From Propionibacteriaceae bacterium (GTDB lineage Bacteria > Actinomycetota > Actinomycetes > Propionibacteriales > Propionibacteriaceae), in assembly GCA_020438595.1 (NCBI GenBank), contig JAGQUI010000114.1:1-7977 (forward strand): DNA of 7,977 bases, in the 5' to 3' direction. Positions 2,894-7,560 of this stretch are shown here, one piece after another (position 1 is the first letter of the stretch; the number at the start of each line of letters is the position of its first letter). The notes under the pieces were generated by a model. It made no database searches. It had not been told where the DNA came from and worked only from the letters and a program-made list of their open reading frames with translations. Both the position numbers and the translations under genes were made by a program.

Positions 2894-3208
2894 TCAGTGC
2901 ACGGCCTTGAGGCCGACCACCCCGCCGATGATCATCGCCACGAACAGCAGGCGCAGGGCCGTGGCCGGCTCGGTGCCGTTCACCATGCCGTACCCGACGG
3001 TGAGCACGGCGCCGATCCCCACCCAGACCGCGTAGGCCGTCCCGGTGGGCAGCTCGCGCATCGCATAGGCCAGCCCACCCATGCTGAGCAGCAGGGCGAC
3101 GCCGAAGACGACCGACGGTACGGGACGGCTGAATCCCTCCGAGCGGCCGAGGGCGATCGCCCACACGGATTCCAGGACGCCGGAGAGCACAAGAACGAGC
3201 CAGGACAT
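2894..3208 (-). CDS. sugE: SMR-family guanidinium exporter (SugE/Gdx)
   Basis: Inner-membrane proton antiporter of the small multidrug resistance family, Gdx subtype, which exports guanidinium as a dual-topology homodimer. The 104-residue product has four predicted helices and aligns throughout with E. coli SugE (MSW start, GFSR near 25-28, PTGTAYAVW 54-62, GLK near the end). The central Glu13 and the residues Ser42, Tyr59 and Trp62 found in the Gdx substrate site are all present. The ATG at 3208 was preferred over GTG at 3220 because homologues begin MSW and a GTGAGG ribosome binding site lies 6 nt upstream of it. A guanidine-III riboswitch directly precedes the gene and supports the substrate. 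The gene converges on DUF3073 and ends 4 nt before the tandem repeat array. Confidence 0.93.
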   Translation of the reverse strand: MSWLVLVLSGVLESVWAIALGRSEGFSRPVPSVVFGVALLLSMGGLAYAMRELPTGTAYAVWVGIGAVLTVGYGMVNGTEPATALRLLFVAMIIGGVVGLKAVH

Positions 3209-3214
3209 GACGAG

Positions 3215-3220
3215 CCTCAC
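3215..3220 (-). promoter_or_regulatory. Ribosome binding site of sugE next to the riboswitch pseudoknot
   Basis: On the coding strand GTGAGG lies 6 nt before the ATG at 3208 and begins at the first base after the 41-nt riboswitch core. Folding of the pseudoknot could therefore change access of the ribosome, which suggests translational control. Confidence 0.6.
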
Positions 3221-3261
3221 TGGCCGTCTTGTCGCACACCGGGTACGGCTCCCTCGTCCGG
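3221..3261 (-). ncRNA. Guanidine-III (ykkC-III) riboswitch
   Basis: The 41-nt leader segment matches, from memory, the Thermobifida fusca guanidine-III RNA of known structure, at the same length. Shared blocks on the minus strand are CCGGACGAGG, GCCGTACCCGGT and GACAAGACGGC. CCGG at nt 1-4 can pair with CCGG at nt 20-23, and GCCGU (nt 13-17, 3249-3245) with ACGGC (nt 35-39, 3227-3223) to form the expected pseudoknot. The non-conserved positions differ mainly in the linkers (nt 11-12 and 25-28). It lies 12 nt upstream of the start of a SugE/Gdx gene, the known partner of this class. Guanidinium binding should expose the ribosome binding site and raise export. Confidence 0.92.
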
Positions 3262-3262
3262 G

Positions 3263-3277
3263 CCCCCGGATCGGGGG
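3263..3277 (-). other. Short hairpin just upstream of the riboswitch
   Basis: CCCCC and GGGGG (3263-3267 and 3273-3277) form a perfect 5-bp stem with a 5-nt loop immediately 5' of the riboswitch core in the sugE leader. It may insulate the leader or compete with folding of the core. No family assignment is possible. Confidence 0.4.
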
Positions 3278-3286
3278 TCGGAGCCA

Positions 3287-3292: not shown

Positions 3293-3330
3293 TCACAGGA
3301 AGCAGGGCCGAACGGCGCTGCCCGCCCGGA

Positions 3331-3440
3331 ACCCACCTTTGTCGGGTTATGGGGACCGCTGGCCCACTCGCCTGCTGTCCGACCCACTTTAGTCGGGTTC
3401 TGCCCCCGAACCCGGCCGCCATAGCCCGATGAAAGTGGGT
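3331..3440. repeat. Three copies of an 18-nt motif, one inverted
   Basis: ACCCACCTTTGTCGGGTT (3331-3348, +), ACCCACTTTAGTCGGGTT (3382-3399, +) and ACCCACTTTCATCGGGCT (3423-3440, -) agree at 14 of 18 positions. Copies one and three also share flanking bases, so the similarity runs to about 22 nt. ACCC at one end can pair with GGGT at the other. The copies lie upstream of sugE, about 40-150 bp before its putative -10 box, and downstream of the gene ending at 3520. They could be operator sites or small dispersed repeats. Confidence 0.7.
3394..3414. other. Perfect 7-bp inverted repeat overlapping the second 18-nt motif
   Basis: CGGGTTC (3394-3400) and GAACCCG (3408-3414) are separated by a 7-nt C-rich spacer. 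Pairing of this hairpin uses the GGGTT end of the 18-nt motif at 3382-3399, so the two structures exclude each other. Confidence 0.5.
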
Positions 3441-4831: not shown

Positions 4832-5713
4832 TCAGGGGTGCGCGGTCGTGGTCGCGTCGGCCGCGTCGCCCCGGAGCCTGCCGCTCAGCCACGCGCCGAT
4901 CGCCAGCACGGCGCCGAGCGCCCCGATCACGAGCAGGGGAGTCACCACGGGGGAGCCGGTGGCGTCGGTGATCATCCCGGCGACCGGCCGCAAGTCCGCG
5001 CCGAGCCAGGAGTCCAGCGCCCGGATGGTCAGGAACCAGCCGAGGCCGACCACGGCGGCCCCGCCGAGCAGGCTGAGGCCGAGCCCGATCACCGGTTCCC
5101 GCACGCCCGGCCACACCCAGATCGTCGCGATCGCGAGGCCGAGCGCCAACCACGGCAACCAGGCGGACGCCAGGTCGAGCACGCGGTAGCCGGCCTGCAT
5201 CAGGGGGAGCGAGGCCGGGTCGATCGTGAGCACGGTGATGCCGCCGGTCACGTCGGGGACCTGGGCGATGACCGGGACGCCCGCGTCGATCAGCGCCTGC
5301 TGCACCGCTGCCACGTACGGCGCGTACGGAAGCTGCACCACGCCCTCCTCGAGTTGCAGGTCCGCATACTCGCCCGTGAGCTGGGCGAGAAGTTGCTCAC
5401 GGGCCAACTGGAGGCTCTCGATGGTGGCGTCGGTGAACGCGTCGCTCGCCACGATGTCAGCCACCACGCTAGTCACCAGCGTGCGGATCGTCGCGTTGTC
5501 GGCCACGCCGAACTGGGTGACGACCGCGTCGGTGAGCTTCGTGGTCACCACCTGCTGCATCGCGCTCGATCGCACCACCGGGGAGTACGCCGCGCCGAAG
5601 GTATCCGAGTCGCTGAGCAGTGCGTGCGTCCAGCCGGCCACCGGTGCGAGAGCGGCGGCGAGCCCGGCGAAGACCGCCACCACGATGCCGGCTACCCTCC
5701 GGCCGGGAGTCAC
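4832..5713 (-). CDS. Four-helix membrane protein with an extracytoplasmic domain, function unknown
   Basis: Predicted 293-residue integral membrane protein that I cannot assign to a named family. A positively charged N-terminus (VTPGRRVAG) leads into helix 1 (about 7-28). A non-membrane domain of about 150 residues follows (30-180), probably outside the cell, rich in Val, Ala, Thr and Gln, with a helical stretch DATIESLQLAREQLLAQL (95-112). Three further helices lie at about 182-201, 208-230 and 256-276, and the tail is short and charged. The GTG start overlaps the ABC-F stop as GTGA (5713-5710), a typical sign of translational coupling. The fructosamine kinase follows after 32 nt. The overlap suggests matched expression with the ABC-F protein but does not show a shared function. 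Confidence 0.85.
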   Translation of the reverse strand: MTPGRRVAGIVVAVFAGLAAALAPVAGWTHALLSDSDTFGAAYSPVVRSSAMQQVVTTKLTDAVVTQFGVADNATIRTLVTSVVADIVASDAFTDATIESLQLAREQLLAQLTGEYADLQLEEGVVQLPYAPYVAAVQQALIDAGVPVIAQVPDVTGGITVLTIDPASLPLMQAGYRVLDLASAWLPWLALGLAIATIWVWPGVREPVIGLGLSLLGGAAVVGLGWFLTIRALDSWLGADLRPVAGMITDATGSPVVTPLLVIGALGAVLAIGAWLSGRLRGDAADATTTAHP

Positions 5714-7560
5714 CCCTCGCCCACCTGTTCGGCCAGTTCCAGCCACTGCTCCTCCAGGGTCTCCTGACGATTCACAGCCTGCTCCAGTTCCGCGCCCAAC
5801 GCCACCAGCTTCTCGTAGTCGGCGGCGTGCGCGTCGAGTTCCGCGTGCAGTTCCTCGATCCGGGCCCCGGCCTTCGCCAGCTGGGACTCCACCCGGGCCA
5901 GGTCCTTGCGGGCCTGGCGCTGCACGGCGGCGTCGGTGGCGGTGGGACGCGGAGCCCCGGCCCGGCCACCGGGTTCCTCGGGGACCGCTGCCGCACGACG
6001 GCGCTCCAGGTACTCCTCGACCCCGCCGGGCAGCAGGACGCAGCTGCCGTCCCCGAGCAGGGCGTACTGCACGTCGCAGGTGCGCTCCAGGAACCACCGG
6101 TCGTGGGAGACCACGATCAGCGTGCCCGGCCAGCCGTCCAGGTGGTCCTCGATCACGGTGAGCGTGTCGATGTCGAGGTCGTTGGTGGGCTCGTCCAGCA
6201 GCAGCACGTTGGGCTCGCTGAGCAGCAGCCGCAGGAACTGCAGCCGGCGCCGCTCACCGCCGCTCAACTCGCCGATCCGGGTGACCAGGCGCTGGCCCGA
6301 GAACCCGAAGTCCTCGAGCAGGTTGGACGCCGAGGACTCCTTGCCGGTGGCCAGTTTCACCTGCCGCTGCAGCCGTTGCACCGACTCCAGCACCCTCTCG
6401 CCCGGGTCGGGTGGACCGAGTAAGGAACCGTCCCCAACTTGGTCCGGACCGGGTTGGGGACGGTTCCTTACTCGGTCCACCGCGGCGGCGTCCTGACTGA
6501 GGTAGCCGATCCGCAGGGTCTTCCCCTGCTTCACCCGTCCGGCCTGCGGCGCCACCTCGCCGGCCAGCAGGCGCAGCAGCGTGGTCTTTCCCGACCCGTT
6601 CACCCCGACGATCCCGATCCGGTCGCCCGGCCCGATCGACCAGTCCAGGTGGTCGACGAGCGCCCGGCCGTCGGGCAGCGCGTAGGTGAGGTGGTGCAGG
6701 TCGAACACGTCCTTGCCGAGCCGGGCGGTGGCGAACTCGCGCAGCCTCAGCGAGTCCCGGGCCTCGGGCTCGTTGCGGATCAGGGCGTTCGCCGCCTCGA
6801 TCCGGAACTTCGGCTTCGACGTGCGCGCGGGCGGGCCGCGGCGCAGCCAGGCGAGCTCCTTGCGCAGCAGGTTCTGCCGCCGGGCCTCGTTCGCCGCCGC
6901 CTGCCGGACCCGCTCGGCGCGGGCCAGCACGTAGGCCGCGTAGCCGCCGTCGTAGGCGTCCACGACCGCGTCGTGCACCTCCCAGACCCGGGTGCAGACC
7001 GCGTCGAGGAACCAGCGGTCGTGGCTGACCACCAGCATCGCGGTGCCGGCAGCCTGCAGCCGGTTCAGGTGCCCGGCCAGCCAGGCGACGGCCTCCACGT
7101 CCAGGTGGTTGGTGGGCTCGTCCAGGACCAGCAGGTCGTGCCCGGCCAGCAGGACGGCGGCGAGGCTGACCCGGCGCCGCTCGCCGCCGCTCAGGTCGGC
7201 GACCGGCTGGGCGAGGTCGAGGATGCCGAGCAGGTGCGTGACCACCGACCGCTTGCCCGCGTCCGCCGCCCACGCGTGGTCGGGCCGTCCGCCCACGACG
7301 ACGTCGCGGATGGTCGCTCCGGGCGCGAAGTCCTCCACCTGGCCGAGGTGGCCGACGGTCGCGGACCGGTTGCGCACGACCTGCCCGGCGTCGGGCTCGC
7401 GCTCGCCGACGAGCAGTTCCAGCAGCGTGGTCTTGCCGTCGCCGTTGCGCCCGACCACACCCACCACGTCGCCGTGGTCGAGGCCGAGGCTCACCCCGTC
7501 CAGCAGGACGCGGGTGCCGAACGCGATCGAGATCCGTTCGGCGTTCACCAGGTTCGCCAA
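5710..7560 (-). CDS. ABC-F family ATPase (Uup-like) with an in-frame palindromic insertion
   Basis: Soluble protein with two ATP-binding cassettes and no membrane domain; the ABC-F family acts on ribosomes, in translation rescue or antibiotic protection, rather than in transport. Domain 1 has Walker A GRNGDGKT (37-44), signature LSGGE (123-127), Walker B LLVLDEPT (143-150) and switch His180. A basic linker of about 200-290 is the region that contacts the P-site tRNA. Domain 2 has GVNGSGKT (319-326), LSGGE (432-436), LLLDEPT (453-459) and His486. A charged C-terminal coiled coil (about 540-614) suggests the Uup type, which is why the best guess is a housekeeping rather than resistance member. 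Residues 363-385 are encoded by a palindromic insertion. The start is TTG, supported by the family-typical MANLVN, though no clear ribosome binding site is seen. It is 10 nt from the DUF4191 stop. Confidence 0.95.
   Translation of the reverse strand: MANLVNAERISIAFGTRVLLDGVSLGLDHGDVVGVVGRNGDGKTTLLELLVGEREPDAGQVVRNRSATVGHLGQVEDFAPGATIRDVVVGGRPDHAWAADAGKRSVVTHLLGILDLAQPVADLSGGERRRVSLAAVLLAGHDLLVLDEPTNHLDVEAVAWLAGHLNRLQAAGTAMLVVSHDRWFLDAVCTRVWEVHDAVVDAYDGGYAAYVLARAERVRQAAANEARRQNLLRKELAWLRRGPPARTSKPKFRIEAANALIRNEPEARDSLRLREFATARLGKDVFDLHHLTYALPDGRALVDHLDWSIGPGDRIGIVGVNGSGKTTLLRLLAGEVAPQAGRVKQGKTLRIGYLSQDAAAVDRVRNRPQPGPDQVGDGSLLGPPDPGERVLESVQRLQRQVKLATGKESSASNLLEDFGFSGQRLVTRIGELSGGERRRLQFLRLLLSEPNVLLLDEPTNDLDIDTLTVIEDHLDGWPGTLIVVSHDRWFLERTCDVQYALLGDGSCVLLPGGVEEYLERRRAAAVPEEPGGRAGAPRPTATDAAVQRQARKDLARVESQLAKAGARIEELHAELDAHAADYEKLVALGAELEQAVNRQETLEEQWLELAEQVGEG
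6410..6481. repeat. 72-bp near-perfect palindromic element inside the ABC-F gene
   Basis: Bases 6410-6438 and 6453-6481 are exact reverse complements (29 bp). The centre, 6441-6450, is GGTCCGGACC, itself palindromic, and only the pairs 6439/6452 and 6440/6451 (T and G) fail, so 34 of 36 positions pair. The host gene reads through it without a stop, as residues from Ala360 to Pro384, with RVRNRPQPGPDQVGDGSLL central. Deleting 69 bp (6409-6477) restores AAAVDPGERVLE, a normal-looking ABC-F sequence, and leaves GGTC on both sides (6405-6408 and 6474-6477), a possible target duplication. The core TAAGGAACCGTCCCC resembles short palindromic repeats linked to REP-associated transposases (recollection). 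No second copy is seen in this window. Confidence 0.93.

Follow-up and report, generated by a model that had tools for sequence, protein, structure and literature searches.

A putative REP doublet read in frame within an ABC-F ATPase gene of a Propionibacteriaceae bacterium

In the window (the whole 7,977-nt stretch of contig JAGQUI010000114.1 that was analysed), we identified a 72-bp palindrome at positions 6410–6481, inside the gene of an ABC-F ATPase. This palindrome is very probably an inverted doublet of a nearly genus-restricted, RAYT-linked REP family, which landed in the loop following the second-domain Q-loop and was tolerated there.

The palindrome and the loop that holds it

The palindrome is composed of two 36-nt arms (6410–6445 and 6446–6481), which are 94% complementary, adjoin with 0 nt between them and pair at 34 of 36 positions. 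The first-pass annotation had described such a 72-bp palindrome, and its presence was confirmed by an inverted-repeat search and by shuffling: the centred-palindrome score of 6410–6481 was 30, with a maximum of 7 in the rest of the window and of 12 in 30 mononucleotide shuffles. The coding-strand RNA of this segment has a predicted folding energy of −71.7 kcal/mol, with z = −9.75 relative to 200 dinucleotide-shuffled sequences. Based on folding and palindrome score, we delineated two candidate REP units, the first with a GGTGG foot and a hairpin (6410–6445, plus strand) and the second inverted (6446–6481, minus strand). Each 36-nt unit also folds alone with a GGACC..GGTCC stem, at −15.3 and −12.6 kcal/mol, respectively, with weak z values (−2.43 and −1.22; 25 of 200 shuffles match the fold of unit 2). 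Judged by its sequence, and by doublets of like anatomy in a related genome, the palindrome is an inverted, REPIN/BIME-like doublet belonging to a REP family that has multiplied in relatives. The GGTC direct repeat that had also been reported is present at 6405–6408 and 6474–6477; the match is weak, being only 4 bp long with one copy inside a palindrome arm, and for the same reasons it is not counted as evidence for a MITE-like target duplication.

The whole palindrome lies within an open reading frame on the minus strand (5710–7560), listed with a TTG start and encoding 616 residues. Because EttA chains are its closest solved structures by sequence, two of its stretches match the ABC_tran profile and its top NCBIfam models score below their cut-offs, we call this protein ABC-F and nothing narrower. 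Residues 319–326 and 432–436, which we take to be the Walker A and LSGGE signature motifs, lie on either side of the palindrome, in agreement with the in-frame location originally proposed. The insertion site is the loop just after the Q-loop of the second ATPase domain, where the window protein has 32 residues (DAAAVD...DPGE) against nine in plain loops such as TVTELDDSE. The resulting net gain of 23 residues matches the figure of about 23 given earlier and equals 69 nt, a net excess over plain-loop homologues that corresponds to the codons of residues 363–385 (6406–6474, minus strand). The insert-derived peptide comprises RVRNRPQPGPDQVGDGSLLGPP and neighbouring residues, and two of the three coding-strand frames through the doublet are free of stop codons.

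In the structural model predicted from a 71-row alignment (mean pLDDT 78.4), which replaced a first model from an 18-row alignment (mean pLDDT 45.6), residues 358–380 have pLDDT values below 50 and form no secondary structure. This stretch is placed between a strand (351–354) and a helix (390–405), and the insert thus occupies a loop that is predicted to be unstructured. Further stretches of low pLDDT are residues 242–267 and the C-terminal linker (527–541).

Other features of the window were recorded alongside. A Guanidine-III riboswitch (3219–3282, minus strand, 59.2 bits) is located just upstream of a gene for a small multidrug resistance family transporter (2894–3208, minus strand). A 43-bp repeat containing CCCTGAGGAGCGGTC occurs in three copies after the DUF3073 gene (2731–2860), and the sampled parts of genomes G001, G008 and G012 have one match each with up to three mismatches. 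Short ACCCACTTT..TCGGGTT repeats are found in the intergenic gap 3330–3440, with two matches in the window and none in the sampled relatives. Within 1–2350, a glutamine amidotransferase gene overlaps an AIR synthase gene; by their domains we take these to be the purF-purM pair.

A REP family and its transposase in related genomes

Matches to the element at E ≤ 1e-4 were identified in 7 of the 30 genomes of the genus to which G001 belongs: 82 in G001, 95 in G008, 78 in G012, and 13, 6, 3 and 1 in four others. These are match counts rather than copy numbers, as a palindrome is matched on each strand and scoring was limited to 30 candidates per genome. G001 is the metagenome-assembled genome Actinobacteria bacterium HGW-Actinobacteria-5 (L001), whose best ABC-F segment is 84% identical to that of the window; several ABC-F homologues carry the source label Propionicimonas. 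The exact unit pattern was present in 7 of 198 genomes of the bacterial family (six in the genus, plus one copy in G006), with 50 occurrences in G001, 61 in G012 and 42 in G008, and the reversed control gave 0 in all 198. The REP family is, as far as these matches tell, nearly confined to one genus. A scan of viral contigs with the 16-base core returned 14 stretches as a raw count.

In the G001 consensus ggTGGACCGaGTTcGGAACCGTCCCCaAcccGGTCCGg, derived from 53 exact cores, the foot is GTGG, the stem is GGACCGAGTT..AACTCGGTCC and the core is GGAACCGTCCCC. With respect to the GTAG/GTGG foot, the form ggTGG was found in G001 (53 cores) and G012 (60 cores) and was absent in G008 (72 cores). As arranged by eye, the units form inverted doublets in G001, mainly head-to-tail 34-bp arrays in G008, and both in G012. 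Doublets of 72 bp like that of the window are present in G001, for example at 8827–8898 of locus L106, which is 92% identical. Among the traits of RAYT-associated REPs, a palindromic unit of 20–40 bp with its own hairpin is displayed by the window, an arrangement in inverted doublets by the window and by many G001 clusters, and high dispersed copy number by G001, G008 and G012. The further copies of a mobile-type repeat that had been suggested were therefore found in abundance, in these three relatives.

The extragenic position usual for REPs is violated by the window copy; elsewhere the family is extragenic except in a DNA ligase D (LigD) gene of G008. We trained a codon model on long frames of the related genomes and asked of each copy whether its flanks are coding in one open frame. 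The flanks of the window copy are (scores 26 and 28), and the model called none of 75 sampled clusters in G001, G008 and G012, and none of 10 in G021, as genic and in frame. The sampled clusters were drawn from the best matches, and one in-frame repeat (in the C-terminal linker of the G021 protein) escaped the model, so that the zero count among the 75 is an estimate and possibly too low. In the LigD linker (L206), readable by pattern in 1 of 24 fetched loci, a clear unit stands in frame next to a degenerate one. Peptide searches, restricted to proteins of limited length ranges, retrieved a LigD protein (P0121) with the REP peptide between its primase-polymerase (32–290) and phosphoesterase (360–450) domains, as well as three DUF4185 proteins with the same peptide frame near the C-terminus. 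In-gene copies are thus rare, not absent.

A TnpA_REP/IS200-like transposase gene, which the first-pass annotation had proposed to look for, is present in the relatives that carry the repeat. The corresponding family (PF01797) was above cut-off in 14 of the 30 genus genomes; all 7 genomes that carry the element are among these 14 (hypergeometric p about 0.0017), and none of the 16 genomes without PF01797 contained the element at E ≤ 1e-4. Inverted REP cores with up to one mismatch flank both sides of 14 of 21 RAYT loci, the count for random REP-rich stretches being 41 of 1,967; any REP core was seen at 16 of the 21 loci and none at five. All 21 RAYT proteins have YxWxNPV and all 21 have NHxH, but their frames were picked by NHxH; these are presumably the catalytic Tyr and HUH motifs, respectively. 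The single RAYT protein that was scanned gave Y1_Tnp only in Pfam, scored 70.9 bits with the NCBIfam model NF047646 against a cut-off of 80, and had no sequence match in the PDB. In the printed part of the alignment, many RAYT proteins (L058–L105) end in a helix-turn-helix-like segment resembling LRTRSVPYEQIARVTGLSxSxVxRLH. Co-occurrence and flanking cores link the REP family to a RAYT (Y1/HUH) transposase in these relatives.

Loops and repeats among ABC-F homologues

Among the best 120 of 7,998 scored homologues, whose loops were read by pattern in 100 cases and by eye in the remaining 20, a nine-residue loop of the xVTELDDSE type is common. REP-like residues (GDGS, GDGT or NRP) occur at the same loop in 7 of these 120, as seen at the protein level only. 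Most homologues thus lack residues 363–385, as anticipated, and the notion of an isolated case was not borne out. P0001, a 99% identical protein from an NCBI contig, has the insert letter for letter; it is not identical to the window protein and therefore represents a second sequence with the insert. The loops of P0004 and P0020 read as three REP units, those of P0015 and P0021 as shortened doublets and that of P0033 as about one unit, whereas P0019 retains a weak remnant that we count with reservation. Close relatives such as P0002 and P0005 are without the insert, and the rows nearest to the window after P0001 (P0002, P0003, P0008 and P0007) have plain loops. Unrelated extra residues occupy the same loop in P0022, P0023 and L066.

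From 71 chosen proteins we built a tree of 69, omitting the two with unread loops and excluding the loop itself. The eight REP-like rows share a single reading frame and fall in four or five groups: the window with P0001; P0004 with P0019; P0020, perhaps together with P0004 and P0019; P0015 and P0021; and P0033. They need six changes, at least four of which are forced by well-supported branches, gain and loss not being distinguished. A single clade of the REP-bearing rows plus P0030, a group named after the tree was seen, was rejected (p = 8.4e-6). The non-monophyly may be due to repeated gain, to repeated loss or to transfer between lineages. One old gain with many losses is compatible with the rejection of this clade and is judged less likely because plain xVTELD loops lie both inside and outside the group and each loss would have to restore xVTELD. 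The case for wholly separate insertions is weakened, for its part, by the left flank [DN]AAxx[DN], which is common to seven of the eight REP-like loops (P0019 has DAAAVA) and occurs in P0030 alone among the other loops read. P0030 has the right flank VPDESE, as in P0015, and no REP; it looks like the product of a REP deletion and, judged by its identical loops, is apparently the ABC-F protein encoded by G021.

At the DNA level, 22 of 27 ABC-F loci from the genus had a readable loop, and none of these contained an insert of the window REP family. A REP core was found in 1 of the 27, as a one-mismatch site in L089 (genome G023) that looks like chance. The same locus shows an apparent frame change after the second Walker B region, either a real frameshift or an assembly fault. 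The loop in L065, from G008, has a 78-nt in-frame excess that is non-palindromic (GRPGAERQDERESRRGARQRAEEQA).

Repeats of two other families were also identified in frame in this protein, in two other species. In G011, the same loop carries a 21-nt insert with CCCTTCGACAGGCTCAGG, a dispersed, weakly palindromic repeat present in 36 exact copies in that genome, this one included. In G021, GTCATCCCGGCGAACGCCGGGATC stands in frame at a turn near residue 296; its pattern has 155 copies in the genome, two of them inside the ABC-F gene, where the second reads SSRRTPGS in the C-terminal linker. A sample of this third family in G021 had 2 of 48 clusters in frame, a fraction biased upwards because the ABC-F stretch was included on purpose, and the sample skipped clusters less than 150 bases from a stretch end as well as repeated occurrences of the same context. 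P0021 combines REP-like residues in one of its loops with VIPANAG in a second. We tentatively raise the possibility, in which we place rather limited confidence, that one ABC-F protein of the genus is a long-standing recipient of dispersed repeats, with families GGAACCGTCCCC, CCCTTCGACAGGCTCAGG and GTCATCCCGGCGAACGCCGGGATC in frame at three places and one site filled in several lineages, either as a preferred target or through exchange of REP-bearing loops between species by short-tract recombination; REPs would then be a recurrent source of new protein loops.

Rival readings and relation to known repeats

We propose that a REP doublet entered the ABC-F coding sequence at the loop after the second-domain Q-loop with the help of a RAYT, and that it would be read as about 23 flexible residues which the loop tolerates. 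Read-through and tolerance would follow from a net length that is a multiple of three and a used frame without stops; the doublet would be kept because most coding-strand frames through it are stop-free and the loop accepts it. Gene-breaking copies were presumably lost, which would leave survivors in loops and linkers. On this account, a RAYT would have moved the doublet, the host of the window would have a RAYT and the inserted peptide would be neutral. An alternative that we consider unlikely is that old REP residues have been retained as a functional loop peptide tuning the ABC-F protein, the palindrome being a by-product. REP-like residues at the same place and in one frame across four or five tree groups would fit such selection, as would the shared peptide frame in LigD (P0121) and the three DUF4185 proteins, yet close relatives (P0002, P0005 and others) lack the insert, its length varies between about one and three units, unrelated residues are found in the loop as well (P0022, P0023, L066), P0030 of G021 looks like a loss, and the loop is predicted to be disordered.

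It is more improbable still that the hairpin itself, as DNA or RNA, is selected within the gene, for example as a pause in transcription or translation. Its great fold stability and nearly perfect arms are what this explanation would predict, but a young copy accounts for the arm identity equally well and the G001 doublets, none of them in frame, are about as symmetrical by eye; as judged from the proteins, the shortened loops of P0019, P0021 and P0033 suggest that pairing has not been kept. Long hairpins are, as general knowledge has it, error-prone, and an assembly or cloning artefact is nonetheless hardly credible here: the reading frame is kept, the identical insert is present in P0001 from elsewhere, and other assemblies contain the same doublets in large numbers.

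A REP doublet tolerated in a protein loop is of a kind already known from other phyla. The first-pass annotation regarded palindromes inside proteins as known mainly from Rickettsia, which does not agree with the intragenic REP dimers of 20–30 residues that Di Nocera et al (2013; PMC3733652) reported for several species from other phyla. According to that report, over half of the intragenic inserts are dimers or groups encoding 20–30 residues, many insert-bearing proteins serve DNA synthesis and repair, one host is a DNA ligase, and different REPs occupy about the same recB site in two Xanthomonas species. The window resembles these cases in its in-frame dimer of 20–30 residues and in the DNA ligase also hit by its family; it differs from those described there in the ABC-F target, the three repeat families within one genus and the actinobacterial host, the phyla that the main text lists for GTAG and CGTC repeats not including Actinobacteria. 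With REPINs and RAYTs (Bertels & Rainey, 2011, PMC3116915; Nunvar et al, 2010, PMC2817692) the window family and its relatives share the inverted doublet hairpin, REP clusters beside RAYTs and RAYTs between inverted REPs, the last of which Nunvar et al give as a mark of RAYTs. GTGG-headed REPs are listed in the same work, and those of P. fluorescens have a foot like that of the window, G001 and G012 units (PMC3116915, PMC2817692). Compared with REPINs, the window doublet is actinobacterial, has no spacer and so forms nearly one perfect palindrome, and lies in a gene. Rickettsia palindromic elements, set beside the window by description rather than by sequence, likewise consist of palindromes read in frame within proteins; the intragenic CGTC-kind repeats of R. 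conorii, to which RPE-4 and RPE-6 are assigned, apparently have no dedicated transposase (PMC3733652), in contrast to the RAYT-accompanied family of the window.

For Actinomycetota, putative REPs have been tallied in three members, including Acidipropionibacterium thoenii (PMC12306157), and our searches of titles and abstracts brought up no paper on in-gene REPs in Actinobacteria. Within these searches, both the lineage and the recurrence of such inserts in a single protein appear to be new. The finding extends in-frame REP insertion, with a linked RAYT, to an actinobacterial genus. In addition, a single conserved protein here presents a natural series, from the plain loop through about one, two and three units to remnants, along which the gain, growth and loss of a repeat-derived loop can be traced.
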